Below, one piece after another: positions 1 to 22,108 of a stretch of DNA of 22,108 nucleotides. Where the stretch lies: IMG/VR virus record IMGVR_UViG_3300025418_000854, positions 1-22,108 of that record; one strand, given 5' to 3'. Position 1 is the first letter of the stretch; each line of letters begins with the position of its first letter. The notes under the pieces were generated by a model that saw only the letters and a program-made list of their open reading frames with translations, was not told the DNA's origin and made no database searches. This DNA is from a virus. Made by a program: the position numbers and the translations under genes.

Positions 1-146
1 AATGTTTGCATTGTTTGGCCAAGAATCCAATTATTATTGGAATCCTTATTGCCCACTAAAAACCTGACGCAAACGCCTGGTATCTCTTGAATGTCGTTGA
101 TATCCTCAGTGACTGAGGTCAATGGAATTGTGATTGTTCTGCTCAT
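1..146 (-). CDS. Hypothetical protein downstream of tail tip gene (5' part only)
   Basis: The start codon at 146 overlaps the TAA stop of the 993-aa tip protein by one base (TAATG), which suggests translational coupling. The first 48 codons are open and run off the left edge, so the C-terminus is not seen. The visible part begins MSRTITIPLTSVTEDINDIQ and has a mostly polar, beta-like composition without signal peptide or membrane segment. I do not recognise the family. Its position directly after the tail-tip/fibre gene suggests a late structural or accessory protein, such as a fibre-associated protein, but this is inferred from context only. Confidence 0.7.
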   Translation of the reverse strand, partial: MSRTITIPLTSVTEDINDIQEIPGVCVRFLVGNKDSNNNWILGQTMQT

Positions 147-3127
147 TATGATGCCCACACTGGTATTTGATAAGATGATCCGTTGATGATAACTTCAATC
201 CAGGTATTGCTGCCACTTGTTAAGCCTGGTTTATTTGCTGGATTAAATGTCGCTGTACTGGCTCCAGTTGTTGGCCCAGTTTGAAAATAAAGCAATGTGC
301 CACTTCCTTGGCCAACTAAATTTTGAGTATATTGAGAATACAAATTATTGACAAATGCTGTGCTTGATGTGCCAAATGCAGTTGTAGAGTAAACACCATA
401 AGTCCCTGAGCCTTGTATTCCATTTCCTGAAATGGAAACCCCTTTTACTCCAGCTCCATAGACTGAATCTCCTTCAACTCCAGAGCCTGATGAAGAATTC
501 CCATAAACGCCAATTCCTGAACTATTTGCAACTCCTTGAATGCCTGTTCCTCCACCATAGTTATATCCATAAATGGCTGGAGAATATGGATTTGAATTTT
601 GGCCAAATACACCATAAGAATAATATGAACTGGTGTTTGAGTTATATCCAAAAACTCCAGCTGAATTACCAGCTGCATTGGCAGTCCCATAAAGACCATA
701 ATTTTGAATATTAGACAAATTGCCGACCACCGCAGCATATCCAGACACTGAAATGCCTGATGCAGTATTTTGACCATCAAATCTGGCCACGCCTTGGCCA
801 TAAATACTGTTTAAATACATATTGCCAGTATTTTTTTGAATGTAATAACCTGGTGAGGCAATCGGTGCAAATGGACCAGTTGTTGGTGGAGTACCACCAG
901 TCCAATTATCTGACTCAATGTCTTGAAATATTGATGCAGCCACTGGCCCAGTCCATGCCGTTGAATTGGCTGGTACTCCACCATAAGATACTGAATTGGA
1001 ATTGTATTGGCCCATCAAATACCAAACCACTTGGCCAACTGTGGCCGTTGGTGCAGTCAATGACCATCCGCTTGGTGCAGTTGCTCCCGATGTGGGTGTT
1101 GAATATGTTGGTGGGGTTAATGTTTGACTTTGTAGTTTGTATGCAGTGATGGCAGCCAAACCATTTTGGCCAGTTGCACCAGTTACGCTTGCTCCAGTCG
1201 GCCCAGTGCTGCCAGTTGGTCCAGTATTGCCTGTTGGCCCTGTCGGCCCAGTAGCTCCAGTAGACAATGGAACCCAAACAAATGCAGTAGATATTGGACT
1301 TAATGTTGATGATGTTTTATCGTTGCCGACTGTATAAGCAAAATAATATGTTGCAGCTGGTAAAACCAAATCAGAAAACACATAATAACTATTATTTGGA
1401 ACTGTTTGATTATTTGATGTGGTTGATGTAATCCAAGTATTCCAATCCGATGGTGATGGAGTTGATACTGTTGTATAAAACAATGTGCCAGTGGTAATTC
1501 TTCCCACCATTGGAATATAAACTTGCACATCAAAATTGGGTTGAGTGGCCGATTCATGGTGCGCTGAAATTGTTGGTGCAGCCAATGCGCTGAAATAGGT
1601 GGGTGATGCCAATCCCGAATTGGGTGTTGGATGATATTGAGTAATGTCTCCAGTGGCATAAACATTTGCATCATAAGCAATCAGCTGCACTGCTGCACCA
1701 AGATTTCCGTCTGGCAATGATGATTCCTTAACTTGCATCACTCTGAATTGCTGATTTGTCCAGCCATAACTTGAATTGGTCACTGTGACCACATCGCCAG
1801 CATTGACCTGAATTCCAGTGTAATTGGTGGAAAAACTGACAATCAAATCAAGTCGATTTTGCTCAAGTGTCCGATTGGCTAAGTATTGAGCTGTAACCGA
1901 ATTGTTGATCAAATCATATGAAACAGTGAATTTGTTAACTGGCTCGTTTTGATATATCAAATTGGCTGGGGTTTGTAGATTCACATAACCAGCCTGATCC
2001 CTATTTGTTGAATCATTAAATTTGGCCTCAATCTGATTCACCATTTGGGTGATATCCAGCTCCCCCACTGTGATTGATCCAACAATATTATTATCATCAA
2101 ATGCGAATGATGGTGAAATAGCTTTATTGATTACCACTTGCCAATATCCAGTGGCTGCCTGATATGCTTGCCATGAATCACAGCAAGTCATCATCAAATC
2201 GATATTTGACAATACAGTCTGGCCAGTATCCAAAACACCATTAAATCTATATCTGGCCTGTGATGCTGTGCCACCTCCTGCTGGTGTATAGGTGATCAAT
2301 TCATCTGAATAAGCATTCAGAGCTGCGCCCGAGGCAGAGCTGACAAATGATGGATCAATGGCACCGCCATAAATCGGATTGGTAATGTAGTCATACCAAA
2401 CATCGCCTGGCTTGGCACATCCAGCTCCATTCAAATAATGGCTCACATAAAATGTAACTGGCTGCAATGAAGTTGTGCCAGGTGCATTTTGGTTATACAC
2501 CAACTGCACAATGGCAAACGCCAATCCATTCATATTTCGATTAGTGCTGGCCCATTGCTGTCCTGATGGACAAGTATTTTCATCGCCAGAATCATATTTC
2601 ATTATTTCCCATGGCATATAAGTTGTATTGATCGGTGTGATCGTGCCAGTAGGGGAAGATGTGTACAAATAGATATACAGTTGATTTGCAAATGGAGTTA
2701 CATTGTTTGCACCATCGGTCAAAGTAGATACCATGGCTGGATATAAAGCATCAAATGTAATGATCTGATCTTGATAGTAAAAATTGGATGGATTGCCTGG
2801 TGTCGGCAAATTGTAAATAAATTGGCCATTTGGGCTAATGTTTGAAATCACCATCACATAAAACATTTGCTTTTGATTTTGTGATAAAACCGCATCACAA
2901 AACCGACCGCCAGTGTATGCATCACCATAAACCAATGGAATGCCAGCTGTTGGATCTGGTGGCACCTGCTGCCTAACATTGTTTTGTTGGGCCTGTGGCA
3001 CATTGGGTGCAAATATCCTCGATGCAACTACTGAAATGGCAAATGTCACTGCCATTTGTGTTGCTATCCCAGCCGTGGCATACCATGCAGAGAATGCCTC
3101 ATACGCTGCAATTGCTGATTCAATCAT
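146..3127 (-). CDS. Tail tip attachment protein (J-like) with collagen-like and glycine-repeat fibre region
   Basis: 993 aa, the last large tail gene. The N-terminus is Ala-rich and hydrophobic to about residue 40, followed by a conserved-looking IPLVYGDAYTGGRF segment as in phage tip proteins. Residues about 350-490 resemble the lambda gpJ/baseplate-hub module: QMVNQIEAKFND, then YLANRTLEQNRLDL, then GDVVTVTNSSYGW. Residues about 621-655 form collagen-like G-X-Y triplets (GPTGPTGNTGPTG). Residues about 805-910 are a glycine-rich repeat of GVFGYNS/GVYGNSS type, and the protein ends in a Trp-containing beta-like tail (YQIPVW). Known family role: the hub part closes the tail tip, while the distal part contacts the host surface. 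No S74-type self-cleaving chaperone is evident. I infer that hub and fibre are fused in one polypeptide. Start ATG 3127 lies 3 nt after the upstream stop. Confidence 0.85.
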   Translation of the reverse strand: MIESAIAAYEAFSAWYATAGIATQMAVTFAISVVASRIFAPNVPQAQQNNVRQQVPPDPTAGIPLVYGDAYTGGRFCDAVLSQNQKQMFYVMVISNISPNGQFIYNLPTPGNPSNFYYQDQIITFDALYPAMVSTLTDGANNVTPFANQLYIYLYTSSPTGTITPINTTYMPWEIMKYDSGDENTCPSGQQWASTNRNMNGLAFAIVQLVYNQNAPGTTSLQPVTFYVSHYLNGAGCAKPGDVWYDYITNPIYGGAIDPSFVSSASGAALNAYSDELITYTPAGGGTASQARYRFNGVLDTGQTVLSNIDLMMTCCDSWQAYQAATGYWQVVINKAISPSFAFDDNNIVGSITVGELDITQMVNQIEAKFNDSTNRDQAGYVNLQTPANLIYQNEPVNKFTVSYDLINNSVTAQYLANRTLEQNRLDLIVSFSTNYTGIQVNAGDVVTVTNSSYGWTNQQFRVMQVKESSLPDGNLGAAVQLIAYDANVYATGDITQYHPTPNSGLASPTYFSALAAPTISAHHESATQPNFDVQVYIPMVGRITTGTLFYTTVSTPSPSDWNTWITSTTSNNQTVPNNSYYVFSDLVLPAATYYFAYTVGNDKTSSTLSPISTAFVWVPLSTGATGPTGPTGNTGPTGSTGPTGASVTGATGQNGLAAITAYKLQSQTLTPPTYSTPTSGATAPSGWSLTAPTATVGQVVWYLMGQYNSNSVSYGGVPANSTAWTGPVAASIFQDIESDNWTGGTPPTTGPFAPIASPGYYIQKNTGNMYLNSIYGQGVARFDGQNTASGISVSGYAAVVGNLSNIQNYGLYGTANAAGNSAGVFGYNSNTSSYYSYGVFGQNSNPYSPAIYGYNYGGGTGIQGVANSSGIGVYGNSSSGSGVEGDSVYGAGVKGVSISGNGIQGSGTYGVYSTTAFGTSSTAFVNNLYSQYTQNLVGQGSGTLLYFQTGPTTGASTATFNPANKPGLTSGSNTWIEVIINGSSYQIPVWAS

Positions 3128-4985: not shown

Positions 4986-6922
4986 TATGTTCTGCTCCTC
5001 GTTGTGGCAATGTTTTTGGTAGCATATTGGTTAGCTGCCCAAATTGCTCCAGAGCTGCCATATAGCCGATCCTCAAATGATTTGGTATCAATTGCATTGA
5101 TGTAATTGTTGGTGATATTTTGATTTGTTCCACCCATCCCCATTAATTTATTGTTGGGAATCACAGTACCTGATCCTTTAGGGACAATCAATTCTGGGCC
5201 TTGTTCTCCCACCAAATATGGTGTTCCACCAGATACATCACCACCAGCTGCTTTAGGCCCACCAAAATAACTGGAAATGCTCATTGTGCCTTCACCTGGT
5301 ACTGACACATTACTTGATTGAAATGCACTACTAAATATACTTCCACCCAAACTACTAAATAATTGAGTTGCTTGAGCTTTGATTTGAATGGCAATCAAAT
5401 CTTTAATAATACTAGCAGCCAAACTAGCAAAACTGATTTTTCCAGTTTTTGCAAAATTCTCCAATGCTGTTGACATTGAATCCACAATTGTATTGAATGA
5501 CTTTCTGCCAGCATCGGCCATGGTTTCGGCATTTTCTTTATATTGAGCAAATGCCTCATTCCAGCCAGTGCTGAATTTTGTTCTGGCCTCTTGATTGGCT
5601 GCCACCACTTTTTTAGTTTCACCAATATAGTAATCGGTGGATATCTGAACCAATGTTTTTTGTCTGTCCAATTCAGCAGCCATTTGGCTGGCCCCTGGTT
5701 TATTTTTGTCAATTAGATTTTTCTTTTTATCAATATCGTCAATTGTTCTTTGCTGCTCATTCAAGACGTTATTAATTGCGTCTTGCATTTCTTTTTCGTT
5801 TTTGGTTATCTCTTTGTCTTTTTCTTTTTGTTTGAGCATTTCCAAATTCAAATCTGATCGTTTCTTGTAAGAATTAAACAATTCTTTTTCTGCCAATAGC
5901 TGGCCAGAATAGCTGGCCACCACTGTTCTGTTTATATTGTCTTCAGGTTTTTTAGGTGCGACTTTGTTGTTGGCCTCCTCAATTTTCTTGAGTGATGCAA
6001 CATAATCGTCAGAATCCTTGGCCCATTCTGTGGTGAATTGATTCAGATTATCTGTGAGCTGCTTGAAAAATGTGCCTTGGGTATAGCTTCGAATATCAAA
6101 AAGAGTGTATAAATCCTTGGCCAGCAATTTAATGATGCTGCCAAAATGCTGAAATGCTGTGACAGCTGCCTCAACAAAATCGCCAATTGCCTGGGCACCA
6201 ATCTTGAGCCAGCCAAAAAACATTTCCATCATGGTGCCAGTTTTATGAAAACTATCATAGACAGCATTCATTGTCGGAATAAATGCGTTGGTAAACTGCA
6301 ATGATAGGTTTCTGCTGGCAGCCTCAAGTTTAAGTGACAATTCATGGGCTTGTTCAATAGAATTGGCATACTTGTCCATGGTGCCTTTGCTTTCGGCCAT
6401 AGTGGCTGCCAAGCCTTTTAGATCCACTCCCCTAATTGATTTCCCCAATGTTTCAAATGCAAGGCCATTTCTCTCGGCTGAATCCTTCATATTACCAAGA
6501 GCTGATACAGTCTTTTCAAATAAATCCTGTTCAGACAAATGCCTTAAATCATTAAGGGAAACCCCTAATTTCTCAAATGATGTCTGAGCCTTGGCATTGC
6601 CCTGGACTGCTGACTCTAGCTTGGATGTGAATCCAGAATAGATTTTGCTGGTGGCATCAGCTGAACCACCATTTTCCTCAAGAGCCTTGGCCAGCTCCAA
6701 AACCGATGCTGTGGCCACATCATTGGCTTTGGCAGTTTCCACAATCTTATTTGAAAATTCCATGGCTGCCCTGGTCATTTCAGCAAATGCAGCCACCGAC
6801 AATATTTCTGGGATATATTCTTTTAAATCTTTGAGTGAGTTTTTGGCCTCAGAAATTCCTTTTCTGAATTCGGTGGTATCTAGCCCCAGTTGGGCACCTA
6901 AACCAGCAATAATATTGGCCAT
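4985..6922 (-). CDS. Tail tape measure protein
   Basis: 645 aa, largest gene of the tail core and directly after the chaperone. Helical throughout, with a small-residue-rich N-terminus (LGLDTTEFRKGISEAKNSLK) typical of tape-measure proteins, coiled-coil-prone Lys/Glu/Gln-rich segments at about residues 355-430, a lambda gpH-like C-terminal helix (KISFASLAASIIKDLIAIQI, about 494-513), then the common ending GGTPYLVGEQGPELIVPKGS (about 563-582). It sets tail length during assembly and is ejected with the DNA. At about 1.5 angstrom per residue (the family rule) it predicts a tail of roughly 95 nm, consistent with a siphovirus. The start overlaps the chaperone extension stop (TAATG). The protein is on the short side. 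Confidence 0.93.
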   Translation of the reverse strand: MANIIAGLGAQLGLDTTEFRKGISEAKNSLKDLKEYIPEILSVAAFAEMTRAAMEFSNKIVETAKANDVATASVLELAKALEENGGSADATSKIYSGFTSKLESAVQGNAKAQTSFEKLGVSLNDLRHLSEQDLFEKTVSALGNMKDSAERNGLAFETLGKSIRGVDLKGLAATMAESKGTMDKYANSIEQAHELSLKLEAASRNLSLQFTNAFIPTMNAVYDSFHKTGTMMEMFFGWLKIGAQAIGDFVEAAVTAFQHFGSIIKLLAKDLYTLFDIRSYTQGTFFKQLTDNLNQFTTEWAKDSDDYVASLKKIEEANNKVAPKKPEDNINRTVVASYSGQLLAEKELFNSYKKRSDLNLEMLKQKEKDKEITKNEKEMQDAINNVLNEQQRTIDDIDKKKNLIDKNKPGASQMAAELDRQKTLVQISTDYYIGETKKVVAANQEARTKFSTGWNEAFAQYKENAETMADAGRKSFNTIVDSMSTALENFAKTGKISFASLAASIIKDLIAIQIKAQATQLFSSLGGSIFSSAFQSSNVSVPGEGTMSISSYFGGPKAAGGDVSGGTPYLVGEQGPELIVPKGSGTVIPNNKLMGMGGTNQNITNNYINAIDTKSFEDRLYGSSGAIWAANQYATKNIATTRSRT

Positions 6923-10705: not shown

Positions 10706-11734
10706 TTAAGTTGAAAGTCTCACGCCAGCATATACGTCACGAATTGTGCTGCAAACACGCTTTTCAGCATATAGCACCATTGAGCCTGGTGTTGTTTGAT
10801 CAAACCATTGGAATGACATTTCTTCATTGTCAGCAATAGTTACAAATAATTCCCATGCGCCCAAATAAATTGGCAGCTTACTCGATCCAATTTGATCCAT
10901 GAATGGATTGGGAATCACTCGATGGCCAAAAATATTGCCGACTGAATAGCCGTCTTTATCGCCAATCTCAAGAAATAATGGCAAACCACCAGAGTCTTTT
11001 AGCTCACGCAAATAAGCAATAGTATTGGGGTGCATCATCCAGCAAGTGGATGGCATATTGTAGTATTGGGGTGGCAATGCAGCATTGAGTGCAGCAATGT
11101 CGTTATAAACGATTGCACCGCCAGTGGTGGATGCCACTGTCAACACTGTGTGAATTCCATTGGTAATGGCCGATCCATTTGATCCAAATGCAGCTGCTGA
11201 TCCTGATGTGTAGTAATTCAAACCACGCAATCCCTGAGTGCCGCCATAAGTTGTGGTGGTCGAGCCAGACTGGTCATTGTTCAGCATCATTGACAATGCC
11301 TCTTGCTGTGAAAATTCCAAACCGACATCAGAAATGATGGTTTCATTAAGTGCATTAATGTCACTCAAAACTGCTGTCCTGACTGGGACTTGAGCAGAAA
11401 CCACTCTCACTGGCAATTGCCAAAATGATGTGGCTGTATTGGGTGTTCCCACATTGGGTGTGAATGTATAGCCCCATGGGTTTGTCGCATTGGTCACATT
11501 ACCAGTTTTAACCACAAACGCCTCATCCGATCCAATCGTTTGGATCACGCGTGCGCCAGCTGCACGAATAGGATTGGCCAAACGCAATGATGCAAACGCA
11601 TCATCATAAATAACACGACCACCGACATTACTACCTGAGCCAGTGAGTGCCGATGCCTCTTTCAAATTGACAGTCACTCGTTTTTGCTTAACCAGTGATT
11701 TGTGGATGGCCTCAAGAATAATGTTGGTGCTCAT
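10706..11734 (-). CDS. Second HK97-fold major capsid protein paralogue (short form)
   Basis: 342 aa from ATG 11734. An earlier in-frame start at 11827 would place 31 residues inside the upstream gene and across the hairpin, so I reject it. The body aligns along its length with the upstream capsid protein: SALTGSGSNVGGRVIYDDAF against SSLTGGGYNVGGRTAYDPVF, EFSQQEALSMMLNNDQ against EFSQVEGQSMIQNNDQ, and TYGGTQGLRGLNYY against TYGGTQGLRGLNQY. The C-terminal GSMVLYAEKRVCSTIRDVYA is typical of HK97-fold proteins. It lacks the roughly 110-residue N-terminal scaffold/delta region of its neighbour. It could form part of the shell, vertices, or a minor shell component. A weak binding site and the hairpin at 11758-11785 suggest lower expression. 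Confidence 0.88.
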   Translation of the reverse strand: MSTNIILEAIHKSLVKQKRVTVNLKEASALTGSGSNVGGRVIYDDAFASLRLANPIRAAGARVIQTIGSDEAFVVKTGNVTNATNPWGYTFTPNVGTPNTATSFWQLPVRVVSAQVPVRTAVLSDINALNETIISDVGLEFSQQEALSMMLNNDQSGSTTTTYGGTQGLRGLNYYTSGSAAAFGSNGSAITNGIHTVLTVASTTGGAIVYNDIAALNAALPPQYYNMPSTCWMMHPNTIAYLRELKDSGGLPLFLEIGDKDGYSVGNIFGHRVIPNPFMDQIGSSKLPIYLGAWELFVTIADNEEMSFQWFDQTTPGSMVLYAEKRVCSTIRDVYAGVRLST

Positions 11735-11757
11735 AAATAATCCCAAAAAATTTAATG

Positions 11758-11785
11758 ATAAAAAGGTAGGGGAGCAATGCTCCCC
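11758..11785 (-). terminator. Terminator/attenuator-like hairpin between the two capsid genes
   Basis: On the minus strand, 8 nt past the first capsid gene's stop, GGGGAGC-ATT-GCTCCCC (11785-11769) forms a perfect seven-base-pair GC-rich stem, followed by TACC and five T (11764-11760). It resembles an intrinsic terminator, weakened by the 4-nt gap before a short T-run. Since the second capsid gene starts 24 nt later with no obvious promoter in between, partial read-through is likely. It could equally protect the 3' end of the capsid mRNA. Confidence 0.65.
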
Positions 11786-11792
11786 CACACTT

Positions 11793-13154
11793 TTAGTTTG
11801 CTGCCGTAGCAGTTGAACGATAAGCAATAATGCTCAATGGATCGACATTGGATGCAGCCAAACGCTTCTCACCGAAGAATGTGATATAGCCTGGCAATGT
11901 CTGATCGTATCTGCGTAGGATCATGTTCAAACGATCCACAATGGTGTGGCCACGTTGCCAGTCCCCAAAGTACATTGGGAACTTGTTCAATGTACCAGCT
12001 GATGCTGTGGTGGTTTGTGAGGGATTATCAAGATACTTGTTGACCACCACATCAAAACCAAGCATTGTGCCCACGATGCCAGTGCCTGGGCCATCGTTCA
12101 ATGGGTGCATACGCTCGAAAATTGGTGTTCCGTTGGAGTCTTTCAAACCACGAATTTGAGACAACATGAATGGATTGACCAAGAATTTTGCGCTTGGAGT
12201 CCAGTATTGTTGTGGCAATGCGTAGATGAAATTGACCACATCGGTATACGTCACATTGGCTGCACCGACTGTATTGCTATTGGTGGTCAGCTGGTCATAA
12301 ACAGCCAAACTATTCAAACCATTGCTGGTTGAAATGCCTGATGTGCCGAATGCGCCAGTTGTGATTGCACCGCCAGTATATGTGGCTGCTGCACCAGCAT
12401 TTGCATATTGATTCAAACCACGCAAACCTTGAGTACCACCATATGTATTGGGACTATCAGTTTGGTCATTATTTTGGATCATGGATTGACCTTCGACCTG
12501 GCTGAATTCCATCAACATATCATCGACCACATTGGCCTCTAAACCATCGATGTCATCGAGTGCAGCTGTACGAATTGGGAATTGCACATTCAAGTCTTGC
12601 AAAACCAATTGCCAAATGTTGGTCGCTTCAGTTGTTGCTGAACCATTGTTTTGAATGGAATAGCCCCAAGTTGCACCAGCATTGCCGACTTTAGCTCTGA
12701 ACTGATAGGTTGAACCTTCAGTGGTCACGTTTCTGGACAAACCACGCATGGGGTTGATCAAACGCAATGTGTGGAATACTGGATCGTATGCTGTCCGACC
12801 GCCGACATTGTAGCCGCCACCAGTCAAAGATGAACTCTCACGCAAATATGCTTGATACTGGTCATCAGACTCAAACAATTTGATTTCTTTTTCCATTTTG
12901 CCTTTTTTGGCAAAATGCTTGAGCTGCTCACGCACCATCTTATTCACTTCACCTTTGATGGTTTTCGCTGGCTTGATGATTGATGGAGCTGTGTTGATTT
13001 CAGACAATTTGGCCTCGATGGCTGCCAATTTCTCTGTGGTTGCAACAGAAATTTCTTCTACTTTGGCCAGAGTTTGAGTTTTTACTTCCTCAATCTTTGC
13101 CAAATTTGATGCCTCAATGGCATCGACTTTTTCTAGAATTTTATCGACTGACAT
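11793..13154 (-). CDS. Major capsid protein, HK97 fold with N-terminal delta domain
   Basis: 453 aa. Residues 1-52 are strongly coiled-coil (repeated KIEEVK/KVEEIS/IEAKLSEI), followed by a basic helix region to about 105. This is the expected scaffolding delta domain, removed by the prohead protease in HK97-like phages. The capsid body starts near residue 108 (SSLTGGGYNVGGR) and ends with PGYITFFGEKRLAASNVDPL. AAGGA binding site 7 nt before ATG 13154, 14 nt after the protease gene, and a hairpin after its stop: all consistent with high expression. The exact cleavage site cannot be read from the sequence, but the junction near residues 90-107 is a reasonable place to look. Confidence 0.92.
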   Translation of the reverse strand: MSVDKILEKVDAIEASNLAKIEEVKTQTLAKVEEISVATTEKLAAIEAKLSEINTAPSIIKPAKTIKGEVNKMVREQLKHFAKKGKMEKEIKLFESDDQYQAYLRESSSLTGGGYNVGGRTAYDPVFHTLRLINPMRGLSRNVTTEGSTYQFRAKVGNAGATWGYSIQNNGSATTEATNIWQLVLQDLNVQFPIRTAALDDIDGLEANVVDDMLMEFSQVEGQSMIQNNDQTDSPNTYGGTQGLRGLNQYANAGAAATYTGGAITTGAFGTSGISTSNGLNSLAVYDQLTTNSNTVGAANVTYTDVVNFIYALPQQYWTPSAKFLVNPFMLSQIRGLKDSNGTPIFERMHPLNDGPGTGIVGTMLGFDVVVNKYLDNPSQTTTASAGTLNKFPMYFGDWQRGHTIVDRLNMILRRYDQTLPGYITFFGEKRLAASNVDPLSIIAYRSTATAAN

Positions 13155-18919: not shown

Positions 18920-19261
18920 TTAAGACAAATAATCCTCAATGATCTCGATGGCCGTTTCGCTGGATCTGGCCACATAGACTAAGTAGTTTCGTTCATTGAG
19001 CATCAGTCTGATTCGCTTTTGATCATGGGATTCCAAGCCTTCTTGGGTCTTCATTTCAACAAATAAACCATTGAATCCATGCCTGGCCTCGGCCAAGAAT
19101 AGATCTGGTACACCAGCTGTCAATCCTTCCAAAAACAAATTAATTCGATTTTTGGCCGATGTTGCTGCACCATTCGGTATCGAGAAAATGAGCGCATTGG
19201 GCCAAAAAGTCCGAATGTGTTGGATGACTTTGACTTGAATGGTGTGTTCTTTTATTCCCAA
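18920..19261 (-). CDS. VRR-NUC domain nuclease
   Basis: 113 aa from TTG 19261. I prefer this start because it has AGGAG at 5 nt spacing, whereas an ATG at 19324 has no good site and would overlap the upstream gene by 73 nt. The domain is complete: KEHTIQVKVIQHIRTFWPNA, SIPNGAATSAKNR, then the catalytic region GLTAGVPDLFLAE (Asp), GLFVEMKTQEG (Glu-x-Lys) and SHDQKRIRLMLNERNYLVYV (Gln). VRR-NUC proteins are PD-(D/E)XK-type nucleases, in phages often beside helicases, where they may act on branched or replicating DNA. Position just after the replication gene fits. Confidence 0.88.
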   Translation of the reverse strand: MGIKEHTIQVKVIQHIRTFWPNALIFSIPNGAATSAKNRINLFLEGLTAGVPDLFLAEARHGFNGLFVEMKTQEGLESHDQKRIRLMLNERNYLVYVARSSETAIEIIEDYLS

Positions 19262-19467
19262 AATTTCTCCTGAGGTTCCCAAAATTTGTCTGACTTTGGT
19301 TTTTTCTGTATATAAATTGTGCATCTATTTTTGATTCCAAGCAAATAAGTCTGACCAGCCAAGCATTTGTATTGCCAATTCTGTGGCCCCAAATGCTGGC
19401 ATTCATCACAAAAAATCCGATCATCATCGATAAATTCAAAACTGGGCCTTGGGTTTTCTTTTTCCAT
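19252..19467 (-). CDS. Small four-cysteine (putative zinc-binding) protein
   Basis: 71 aa from ATG 19467, which has AAGGA at 7 nt spacing; an in-frame ATG at 19497 lies inside the repeat array and lacks a site. Cysteines at 20, 23, 35 and 49 (FCDECQHL, QYKCLAG, KNRCTIY) suit a zinc knuckle or ribbon. The C-terminus is Lys/Trp-rich (KFWEPQEKFW) and contains a 12-bp direct repeat at DNA level. It ends overlapping the nuclease start by about 10 nt. It could be a DNA-binding accessory or regulator. No family recognised. Confidence 0.65.
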   Translation of the reverse strand: MEKENPRPSFEFIDDDRIFCDECQHLGPQNWQYKCLAGQTYLLGIKNRCTIYIQKKPKSDKFWEPQEKFWE

Positions 19468-19485
19468 TGTTAATCCTTTTTTATT

Positions 19486-19666
19486 ATTGGTTCCCATTGG
19501 TTCCCATTGGTTCCCAGTTTTCTGGAACTTATACCAATAGTGCTACTCAAGCACTATTGGTTCCCTGTTTTTTTCCTAAGGGGAACCGATCAATCGGGAA
19601 CCAATTGAAATGAATCCTTTTCACTTAAATGGGTTTTCTATTGGTTCCCGAAAATTGGGAACCAAT
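19486..19666. repeat. Array of eight 10-bp ATTGGTTCCC-type repeats
   Basis: Forward copies (ATTGGTTCCC) at 19486, 19496 and 19506 in direct tandem, at 19556 and at 19640. Reverse copies (GGGAACCAAT) at 19596 and 19657, plus GGGAACCGAT at 19581 with one change. The 19640/19657 pair is a perfect inverted repeat with a 7-nt spacer, lying within the end of the primase-helicase gene. An additional 11-bp inverted repeat CCAATAGTGCT/AGCACTATTGG lies at 19534-19560. The tandem three have a 10-bp period, about one helical turn. This resembles iterons of a replication origin or multiple operators. It also covers the leader of the zinc-protein gene. Confidence 0.85.
19534..19560. repeat. Perfect 11-bp inverted repeat inside the repeat array
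   Basis: CCAATAGTGCT (19534-19544), 5-nt loop, AGCACTATTGG (19550-19560). The stem can be prolonged by GGAA (19524-19527) and TTCC (19561-19564) across a bulge. No T-run follows on either strand, so it is not a simple terminator. It may be a protein binding site or a cruciform element of an origin. Confidence 0.75.
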
Positions 19667-21684
19667 GATGTGCGTTTTGCACCGACTTTTAACTCAGCTG
19701 GCAAGTCCACTTCCAGTATGGATTCATCCTCAATCAAACCATCAATGATGGACATGACCTCCTCGGTTCGACCAGGCACCAATTGCCTAACGGATCGTTT
19801 GGATGGATATCGGCCAGCTGCAATTTCTTTTTGGATCACATCGATGATTTCAGCTTTTCTGGATTGTTTAATAGATTCGTACTTTTCTTCCTTGGCCAAT
19901 TCCTTGGCCTCAATGCGCTTGGATTCCATCGACTTGGATGGAATGGCCCAGCGCACCGAAATCTCGATCGGGCCACGCAGCTGGTCGGTGACGAACTCGG
20001 CATAAATATTGGACTCAAACGCCACTTCATCAAAATCCGATTGATATCGATGTTTTCCAAGTTTGAGAAATCGTTCTTCGAGTCCATCCTCTTGGAATAG
20101 GTACGCCACGCAATTGGCATCACCTTCCCAGGCACCAGCTCCCCTGGCACTAAAATCCCGTACATCAGCTCGTTTTAAAGCCTTGGGTGTATGGGTAACC
20201 ACCCAGACTGGATATCCACGCCCAATCAGCCCTTCTTTGATGGCTGAAATGTACTTGGCAATCTCAGCGTTATCGTTCTCAGAATCCACGTTAAATGATG
20301 CGCTGGCCGTATCAATCACAATGAGTGGCTTGATCTCCACCAGCTCGCCATCGATGTCTGGGAAATGGCTTACATTCTTAGCTGCCAAAATGGCCAATTT
20401 GGCTATATCTGAGGCACTGGATCGCTTGGTGGCCACGACTTTGAACCAATCTGATATCTCTGGCCATTCAATGGGCAAATCGGCCTCTGTGCGCTTTAAA
20501 CGCTTTTGCAAAGCATACTGAATCCGCTGCACTTGGCCAGTATCCTCGCTCAGGTAAATCACTTTGCGTCTGATCTTGATACTGACATTGGAGAAATGGC
20601 TGTAAAACCCAGCCACTTGCATGGCCAATGGCAAAATGGCACTTGTTTTGCCGACTCCTGGTGCCCCAGCAATCAAAGTCAAACCATCGGCCAAAAATCC
20701 ATCGATCACCCAATTCGGACTGGTGAGCACTGTCATTGGCTCGATTATTCGGCTTTCCCAAATATCTTTAACCAAAATCTCGCCAGTGTCAGGATCAATA
20801 ATATTTGAAAATACTGAATCAGCATTATCAATATTAAAATCTTCTTCAGGATTATTAAAACTATTAATCTGGCCTTGAAACTGGCCTTGAAACCCATATT
20901 TTTTAGATAATCGGATTAATTGCCTAATTCCGATTCCATCTTCCTTTTTAAATGAATCCCATTTCTGAGACATAATAAATGGATCATATTTGGGTGATTT
21001 TCTCGACCACTGATCCCATAATTCAAACCCCAATTCTGATAATTCTTTTTTGAGTATCATGCCCACCGATATCCATTCCTGATAATCCTCGGCCTCGATG
21101 CAAGATAATAATAATTTCACATCATCGGCTTTGGAATTGGATGGCAGATAATCCATGACATTGATCTCTTTCAATACACCAGTGAAATCCCAATCGGTCA
21201 AAAGTATGTTTTTTTTCTGGCCAGAAAATCCACTAAAAAACTCGATTTGCCTGTTCTCTGGCAATGTGATGCATTTCGGTATTTTGTCCTTGGGCATCAA
21301 AACCCAATAATGGGCACCATGGCCAGACAGTGATGTCTCGTATGCTGCACCGACTTTGTTGAGGTAGGTCATCAGCTGCATTTGCTGTGGATGTGGCTGG
21401 TAATCGGCTGCATTTTTCCAATCCAGATCGATGCACACCAGGTATAAATCGGGTTCCAGCATTAATGGGTGCAGCAGTGACAATCCAACATATGGGTGCT
21501 GGATGGACTTGGCTTGGTGGTAGGTGCCAAGTCGGCCAGTGGTGGCAGCCTCGGCAATGCCCATGATGCCATCGATGCCGACTGGCCGTTTCATGTCGGT
21601 GAATCCACAAAAAATTGGGAATTCTTTTAATTCATACCAAAATGGATATTTGGAGTCGGTTTCGCTTACAATTATATTTGCCAT
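19621..21684 (-). CDS. Primase-polymerase fused to RepA-type helicase
   Basis: 687 aa. N-terminal archaeo-eukaryotic primase-type domain: Asp86 and Asp88 in LYLVCIDLDWKN, then SLSGHGAHYWVLMP (118-131) as the sGxH motif. Residues about 185-265 resemble the PriCT-type linker (EDYQEWISVGMILKK, ELWDQWSRKSPKYD). The ATPase part has Walker A GAPGVGKT (340-347), Walker B LIVIDTA (454-460), VVTHTPK (495-501) and RGAGAWEGDANCVAY (514-528), as in RepA/RecA-like hexameric helicases. It would unwind and prime phage DNA at the origin. The C-terminal 80 residues are basic and linker-like. AGGA binding site before ATG 21684. The 3' end overlaps the repeat array. Confidence 0.9.
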   Translation of the reverse strand: MANIIVSETDSKYPFWYELKEFPIFCGFTDMKRPVGIDGIMGIAEAATTGRLGTYHQAKSIQHPYVGLSLLHPLMLEPDLYLVCIDLDWKNAADYQPHPQQMQLMTYLNKVGAAYETSLSGHGAHYWVLMPKDKIPKCITLPENRQIEFFSGFSGQKKNILLTDWDFTGVLKEINVMDYLPSNSKADDVKLLLSCIEAEDYQEWISVGMILKKELSELGFELWDQWSRKSPKYDPFIMSQKWDSFKKEDGIGIRQLIRLSKKYGFQGQFQGQINSFNNPEEDFNIDNADSVFSNIIDPDTGEILVKDIWESRIIEPMTVLTSPNWVIDGFLADGLTLIAGAPGVGKTSAILPLAMQVAGFYSHFSNVSIKIRRKVIYLSEDTGQVQRIQYALQKRLKRTEADLPIEWPEISDWFKVVATKRSSASDIAKLAILAAKNVSHFPDIDGELVEIKPLIVIDTASASFNVDSENDNAEIAKYISAIKEGLIGRGYPVWVVTHTPKALKRADVRDFSARGAGAWEGDANCVAYLFQEDGLEERFLKLGKHRYQSDFDEVAFESNIYAEFVTDQLRGPIEISVRWAIPSKSMESKRIEAKELAKEEKYESIKQSRKAEIIDVIQKEIAAGRYPSKRSVRQLVPGRTEEVMSIIDGLIEDESILEVDLPAELKVGAKRTSLVPNFREPIENPFK

Positions 21685-21791: not shown

Positions 21792-21821
21792 GGGCAGCTC
21801 TCACCAGCTGCCCATTTTTTT
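21792..21821 (+). terminator. Intrinsic terminator-like hairpin reading rightward, copy 2
   Basis: Identical to the 21707 hairpin, 85 bp away, by duplication. It lies 3 nt from the end of the methyltransferase-like gene. Confidence 0.7.
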
Positions 21822-21823
21822 AT

Positions 21824-22108
21824 TTAAAATTTTCCATGCTGTTGCTGCCACAAGTGGAACTTGTCCATTTCCAATGGCTTTAAGTCTGTCCACCCTACTG
21901 GCCACCCCATGAGCCACTCGACCCATTCTGGGTTCAACGGCCCACCAACCTGTGCCGCTAGGGGTATCTCGTTCCTGTCGTATTCCGATGGACTTGCGTT
22001 GTCTTTGTACATTCTCTGAACTGGTGTTGGCCATAGCCTTGGATTGTTCACTTGATCTTGTAACCTTATCTGAATTAAATGGCCGCTCGCTCGATGATTC
22101 TTGCCCTC
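21824..22108 (-). CDS. DNA (cytosine-C5) methyltransferase, C-terminal part only
   Basis: The frame is open from the right edge to the TAA at 21824, about 94 codons. An internal GTG at 22051 is not taken as the start because the frame continues without interruption upstream. The end NPRLWPTPVQRM, then GGPLNPEWVEWLMGWPVGWT and DKFHLWQQQHGKF is the typical C-terminal tail of phage C5-methyltransferase-like proteins (the LNPEWVEWLMGWP segment especially). The catalytic PCQ and ENV motifs lie outside the window, so activity cannot be judged. A role in self-modification against restriction is the usual one. The gene is immediately upstream of the primase-helicase gene. Confidence 0.7.
   Translation of the reverse strand, partial: EGKNHRASGHLIQIRLQDQVNNPRLWPTPVQRMYKDNASPSEYDRNEIPLAAQVGGPLNPEWVEWLMGWPVGWTDLKPLEMDKFHLWQQQHGKF

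Follow-up and report, generated by a model that had tools for sequence, protein, structure and literature searches.

The window analysed in this study, a contig of 22,108 bp that constitutes the whole IMG/VR record, carries a primase-helicase gene and, beside it, an array of 10-bp repeats located directly upstream of the zinc-protein, VRR-NUC and terminase genes on the same strand. The following features were mapped at this locus:

18920..19324, minus strand: VRR-NUC nuclease (PF08774).
19252..19467, minus strand: the next gene after the array, a small protein of 71 aa with CxxC pairs (zinc protein); no match in Pfam.
19486..19515, plus strand: three tandem 10-bp iterons, ATTGGTTCCC three times, identical in position and orientation in relatives.
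19524..19538, minus strand: split ninth iteron copy, ATTGGTataaGTTCC, the ATTGGT part of which begins one hairpin arm.
19533..19561, no strand: hairpin with a 12-bp perfect stem and a 5-nt loop, in the gap separating the iteron blocks.
19556..19565, plus strand: iteron (motif scan).
19575..19585, minus strand: TTCCCCTTAGG, flanked by two facing iterons; a weak feature, with a related element in some relatives.
19581..19590, minus strand: iteron carrying a single mismatch (ATCGGTTCCC); the copies in L008 and L037 are exact.
19596..19605, minus strand: iteron (motif scan).
19640..19649, plus strand: iteron in the 3' end of the primase-helicase gene (motif scan and gene map).
19657..19666, minus strand: iteron in the 3' end of the primase-helicase gene, the sole copy unchanged in L010/L035.
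19657..19869, minus strand: region coding for the predicted winged-helix domain at the C-terminus, about residues 606-676 (AlphaFold2 and co-variation in relatives).
19621..21684, minus strand: primase-helicase gene (AEP-type primase, PriCT-2, RepA-like helicase, C-terminal winged helix).

A scan of the 22,108-bp contig for ATTGGTTCCC detected seven exact sites and one single-mismatch site within 181 bp (19486-19666), on the plus strand at 19486, 19496, 19506, 19556 and 19640 and on the minus strand at 19581 (the mismatched copy), 19596 and 19657. The sole other match with at most one mismatch was at position 6193, and 100 dinucleotide shuffles yielded a mean of 2.5 such matches and never 9. 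The preliminary description of this DNA had reported the same eight sites, three of them in direct 10-bp tandem (19486, 19496 and 19506) and others in inverted pairs, one with perfect arms (19640-19649/19657-19666), and the recount agreed on each of these points. It had also placed the array across non-coding DNA and the last codons of a gene, which was borne out, since the primase-helicase gene ends at 19621 and the sites at 19640 and 19657 therefore lie within it. The central inverted repeat that it mentioned was present as well, with arms of 12 bp (19533-19544/19550-19561) rather than 11 bp, and the split ninth copy, which reads ATTGGTatcGGTTCC or ATTGGTataGGTTCC in relatives, was a site absent from its list. 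A CCTWAGG-like element in the arrays was dropped as a candidate because the pattern was too loose to support a claim.

In the primase-helicase, Pfam recognised PriCT_2 and an AAA_25 helicase, and Foldseek matched the N-terminus to the NrS-1 primase-polymerase (best PDB entries 6a9w and 6jop) and the middle part to RSF1010 RepA; no match specific to the C-terminal domain was returned by Foldseek. For the C-terminus of the window protein, AlphaFold2 predicted a winged-helix-like order of helix-helix-helix-strand-strand, and a related strand/helix arrangement was predicted for the C-terminus of the L083 protein.

The array was found at the same place, as far as the contigs reach, in relatives whose primase-helicases share 79-97% protein identity. 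The preliminary description, which read the array as a possible replication origin or operator cluster, had named two observations that would speak against it, namely scattered copies of the 10-mer and loss of the array from close relatives. Neither was made: the array was present wherever a contig passes the gene end, and ATTGGTTCCC occurred nowhere else in the 36.8-kb relative G002, nor did the changed motif occur elsewhere in the 37.7-kb relative G001. In L010 and L035 (88% identical), seven of the eight sites have switched in concert to AATGGTTCCC, with the GGTTCCC part constant between the two motifs, and the one site that retains the old ATTGGTTCCC is the first site inside the primase-helicase gene. 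This copy is read in frame as TCA TTG GTT CCC, in which T-to-A would change Leu to Met, and this is perhaps why the copy stayed behind. The stem of the hairpin is retained in relatives though its sequence differs. Moreover, L035, which bears the other motif, shared 90.8% identity with the window in residues 1-600 and 70.0% in the winged helix, and L037, which shares the motif of the window, had values of 80.2% and 77.1%, so that L035 is nearer to the window than L037 in the core and farther in the winged helix. In the bacterial genomes searched with the alignment of the window's clade, no relative was found.

More distant relatives were retrieved with an alignment that included phage MW202879.1, and this survey was based on the best 80 of 297 relatives. 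Among these best 80 of 297, about 65 distant loci (28-38% identity) were listed, and more than 60 distant relatives had an array directly after the stop codon of the primase-helicase gene, composed of other motifs of about 10 bp, including CTGCAATCT, CCGCATTAG, CCGGTTTAC, ACACATTCAA and GTCGACCGGAC and, further, GTCGAAGGGAC, CAAGGGGTGT, CCAACGTC and CGAAGATACC. In 67 of 72 loci, the best 8-mer of the flank surpassed that of every one of 100 dinucleotide-shuffled versions. In the largest clade, hereafter clade X (53 loci among the matches listed, again the best 80 of 297), the sites keep near-fixed positions in two blocks, at about -4 to 47 bp and at about 133-176 bp, and most loci have one further site inside the zinc-protein gene that follows. 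The conservation of site positions, which the preliminary description had proposed as a check, was thus evident in clade X as well as in the close relatives. A change of motif in clade X hits nearly all sites of a locus together, and in ten near-complete genomes most or all motif matches were in a single array, some of these genomes having a few copies scattered elsewhere. Two related loci were observed in contigs assigned to bacteria. In the Methylophilales bacterium LSUCC0135 (contig MCAW01000004.1, 3222-7700), an integrase is followed by a related primase-helicase and then by the repeats TTGGGAACGTA and ATTGGAAT and a hairpin, as an integrated relative in a bacterial genome. A contig binned in an Acidimicrobium MAG, which is probably a phage contig within that bin, encodes a clade-X-like primase-helicase (61% identity) and has an array of its own (TAATCCGGT) together with DnaA boxes.

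The variation of the motif in clade X indicated which protein is associated with it, the 53 loci of this set being mutually related and not independent. Of the 68 columns that vary within the C-terminal 95 residues of the primase-helicase, 22, 7 and 6 separated perfectly by motif positions 1, 6 and 10, respectively, and none of the 401 columns in the rest of the enzyme tracked in this way; position 6 required at least five changes on the tree of the rest of the enzyme. In addition, pairwise identity of the C-terminus predicted a shared motif class with an AUC of 0.993, as compared with 0.84 for the rest of the enzyme, 0.738 for the zinc protein and 0.535 for VRR-NUC. In L083, several of the tracking residues (686-697) are located on and just before a late helix. 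The C-terminal codons physically adjoin the array, and shared recombination could therefore explain part of the association. However, most of the tracking nucleotides fell on the first or second codon position and no column tracked by synonymous changes only, which makes hitch-hiking of these codons alone appear less likely. The specificity of the repeat sequence for the DNA-binding domain of the initiator was seen as co-variation only. Together, the predicted fold and the co-variation suggest that the C-terminal winged-helix domain is the likely reader of the iterons.

The small zinc protein had been offered in the preliminary description as another reader, and this fared poorly. A role of this protein, or of VRR-NUC, in binding the array for regulation or DNA processing would fit their place as the next genes and the further site inside the clade-X zinc-protein gene, but none of the 69 variable columns of the zinc protein and none of the 81 of VRR-NUC in clade X tracked the motif. 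The natural chimera L090 pointed the same way, as it resembles L093 (motif GTCCGGTCGAC) most closely in core, zinc protein and VRR-NUC, whereas its C-terminus is nearest to that of L074 and it bears the L074 motif. Furthermore, L019 has the iterons of the window beside a zinc protein that begins like that of L035, so that this N-terminus was swapped while the iterons stayed the same. The zinc protein was accordingly rejected as iteron reader by co-variation and chimeras and VRR-NUC by co-variation; the sequence comparisons do not support the small CxxC protein in this role, and we regard an array bound by either protein as very improbable. The exchange of the zinc-protein N-terminus itself (MEKENPRPSFEF versus MDKIDLLNDPRF; window 19440-19480, L019 and L035) lies directly next to the array, and the exchange site is likely a recombination point.

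Several features that would be expected of an origin accompany the array in the distant relatives. The blocks are usually separated by a hairpin, with a mean perfect stem of 10.3 bp versus 4.8 bp in coding controls; it was longer than every coding control in 66 of 72 loci, and its sequence differs from clade to clade. In 53 of 59 distant loci, at least two perfect DnaA boxes were located after the gene, as compared with one in 116 kb of sequence upstream. Host DnaA boxes near iterons are common at iteron origins, though not universal, and none was found near the array in the window's own clade. A second perfect pair of DnaA boxes, inverted and with GTGGATAAGTCG twice nearby, was also observed about 1.4 kb past the array in L094 (6380-6444) and at equivalent places in many clade-X loci. 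The preliminary description had suggested GC skew as a check, and the outcome was divided: in nine of nine near-complete clade-X genomes the array and the minimum of the detrended cumulative skew were 38-243 bp apart, and in MW202879 they were 322 bp apart, but in the window's clade the distance was 16 kb for G002 and about 1.6 kb for G001. The skew of the window contig itself was uninformative for an origin because the contig is a 22-kb fragment. The genes adjoining the array on either side are on one strand, third-position skew showed no clear switch at the array, and the place of the array is also a module boundary; for the latter two reasons the minimum is support and not proof of an origin.

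These data bear on whether the array acts mainly in transcription. The same protein or complex might chiefly repress or time the transcription of the zinc-protein, VRR-NUC and terminase genes, with replication beginning elsewhere, and the location of the array just upstream of this gene set, on its strand, would suit such an operator cluster, as would the lack of DnaA boxes and of a skew signal in the window's clade. For many initiators, the iterons are also sites of transcriptional control. Nevertheless, the apparent reader is the primase-helicase and not a dedicated repressor, sites lie within both flanking genes, and the distant relatives join the array with DnaA boxes, a hairpin and a skew minimum, so that we consider a mainly regulatory array unlikely; auto-regulation may proceed through the same iteron sites.

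Also considered were a packaging site (pac/cos) and a structured RNA element within the transcript. The strand is strongly foldable (z = -8.1), and HNH and terminase genes lie 1-2 kb downstream of the array. On the other hand, direct tandem copies change in concert just as inverted ones do, which pairing would not require, and the motif tracks the C-terminus of the primase-helicase rather than the downstream genes tested. An Rfam search gave no match, and the RNA element was rejected on this ground and on the co-change of the tandem copies. Either possibility therefore seems remote.

Taken together, the array is, with good probability, an iteron replication origin bound by the C-terminal winged helix of the adjacent primase-helicase. 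Computation directly shows the array and its conserved place, the change of the motif in concert, the C-terminal co-variation and the hairpin; the support from DnaA boxes and from a GC-skew minimum at the array comes from the distant relatives only. The suggestion in the preliminary description of an origin recognised by the primase-helicase was strongly supported by the conserved position and the co-variation, and in the distant relatives by the features described above; judged from sequence, the array very probably functions as an origin. The winged-helix domain would bind the 10-bp iterons in either orientation, and this binding would put the RepA-like hexameric helicase onto the DNA at the blocks of sites flanking the hairpin. 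After melting, the fused AEP-type primase would begin synthesis there, possibly at the exposed hairpin.

The proposed arrangement combines elements of several known systems. The P4 alpha protein unites priming, unwinding and a C-terminal winged helix acting on origin repeats (PMC4234260), and the single protein predicted here is similar in these respects; the C-terminal winged helix is supported by predicted fold and co-variation. However, P4 alpha has a Toprim primase, whereas the N-terminus here matches the NrS-1 AEP primase-polymerase and the helicase is RSF1010 RepA-like. The pRN1 protein ORF904 comprises an AEP primase, an SF3 helicase and a winged helix, and its origin is one stem-loop of about 100 bp without iterons (PMC4234260). 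The likeness extends to an origin just downstream of the protein's own gene and containing a stem-loop, and the present system differs in its AAA_25/RepA/DnaB-like helicase and its iterons. In RSF1010, iteron binding (RepC), unwinding (RepA) and priming (RepB') are divided over three proteins (PMC4234260), in contrast to one fused protein here, although the helicase fold and an origin with iterons and short hairpins are shared. Because the motif tracks the fused C-terminal domain, a separate RepC-like reader would not be needed, as judged from a window that is a fragment. NrS-1 shares the N-terminal primase fold, but its helicase domain is of the SF3 type, and in place of an iteron array its genome contains two copies of an 8-nt priming signal (PMC7102993). 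The best reading is an iteron origin that would be bound by the primase-helicase itself, similar to P4 in logic but with an NrS-1-like primase and an RSF1010-RepA-like helicase as its parts. No paper on the origin of this phage group was found in the literature, most subscription journals lying outside the search.

In the PLE satellites of Vibrio cholerae, the specificity domain of the initiator varies together with the iterons, and the two are exchanged as one cognate module (PMC8263062). A cognate, swappable pair is likewise indicated here, with sites of about 10 bp and a C-terminal primase-helicase domain versus the RepA_N initiator and semi-palindromic iterons of about 30 bp of the satellites, and the present findings would extend this principle to a fused primase-helicase. 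On the sequence comparisons, the unusual part is the speed at which the iteron and its presumed reading domain change together. We tentatively propose, at slightly less than even chances, that the winged-helix domain and the iterons form an exchangeable cassette which defines the identity of the origin, diversifies more quickly than the remainder of the replication module and is swapped as one unit from lineage to lineage. If this is true, the diversity of origin cassettes perhaps lets phages escape replicon cross-talk, satellites or origin-directed nucleases when hosts are co-infected. The analysis predicts a replication origin and its reading domain for a widespread, almost uncultured (freshwater/lake) phage group, and the dozens of natural winged-helix/iteron pairs are a source for reading a recognition code.

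Other genes of the window were also noted. Two adjacent, visibly similar proteins (10706-11827 and 11793-13154, both with TYGGTQGLRGLN) resemble duplicated major capsid genes, and a 993-aa protein with a collagen-like GPTGPTG stretch (146-3127) is, from its sequence, probably a tail or receptor-contact protein. A C-terminal piece of a DNA cytosine methyltransferase (21801-22034) is located at the contig end.
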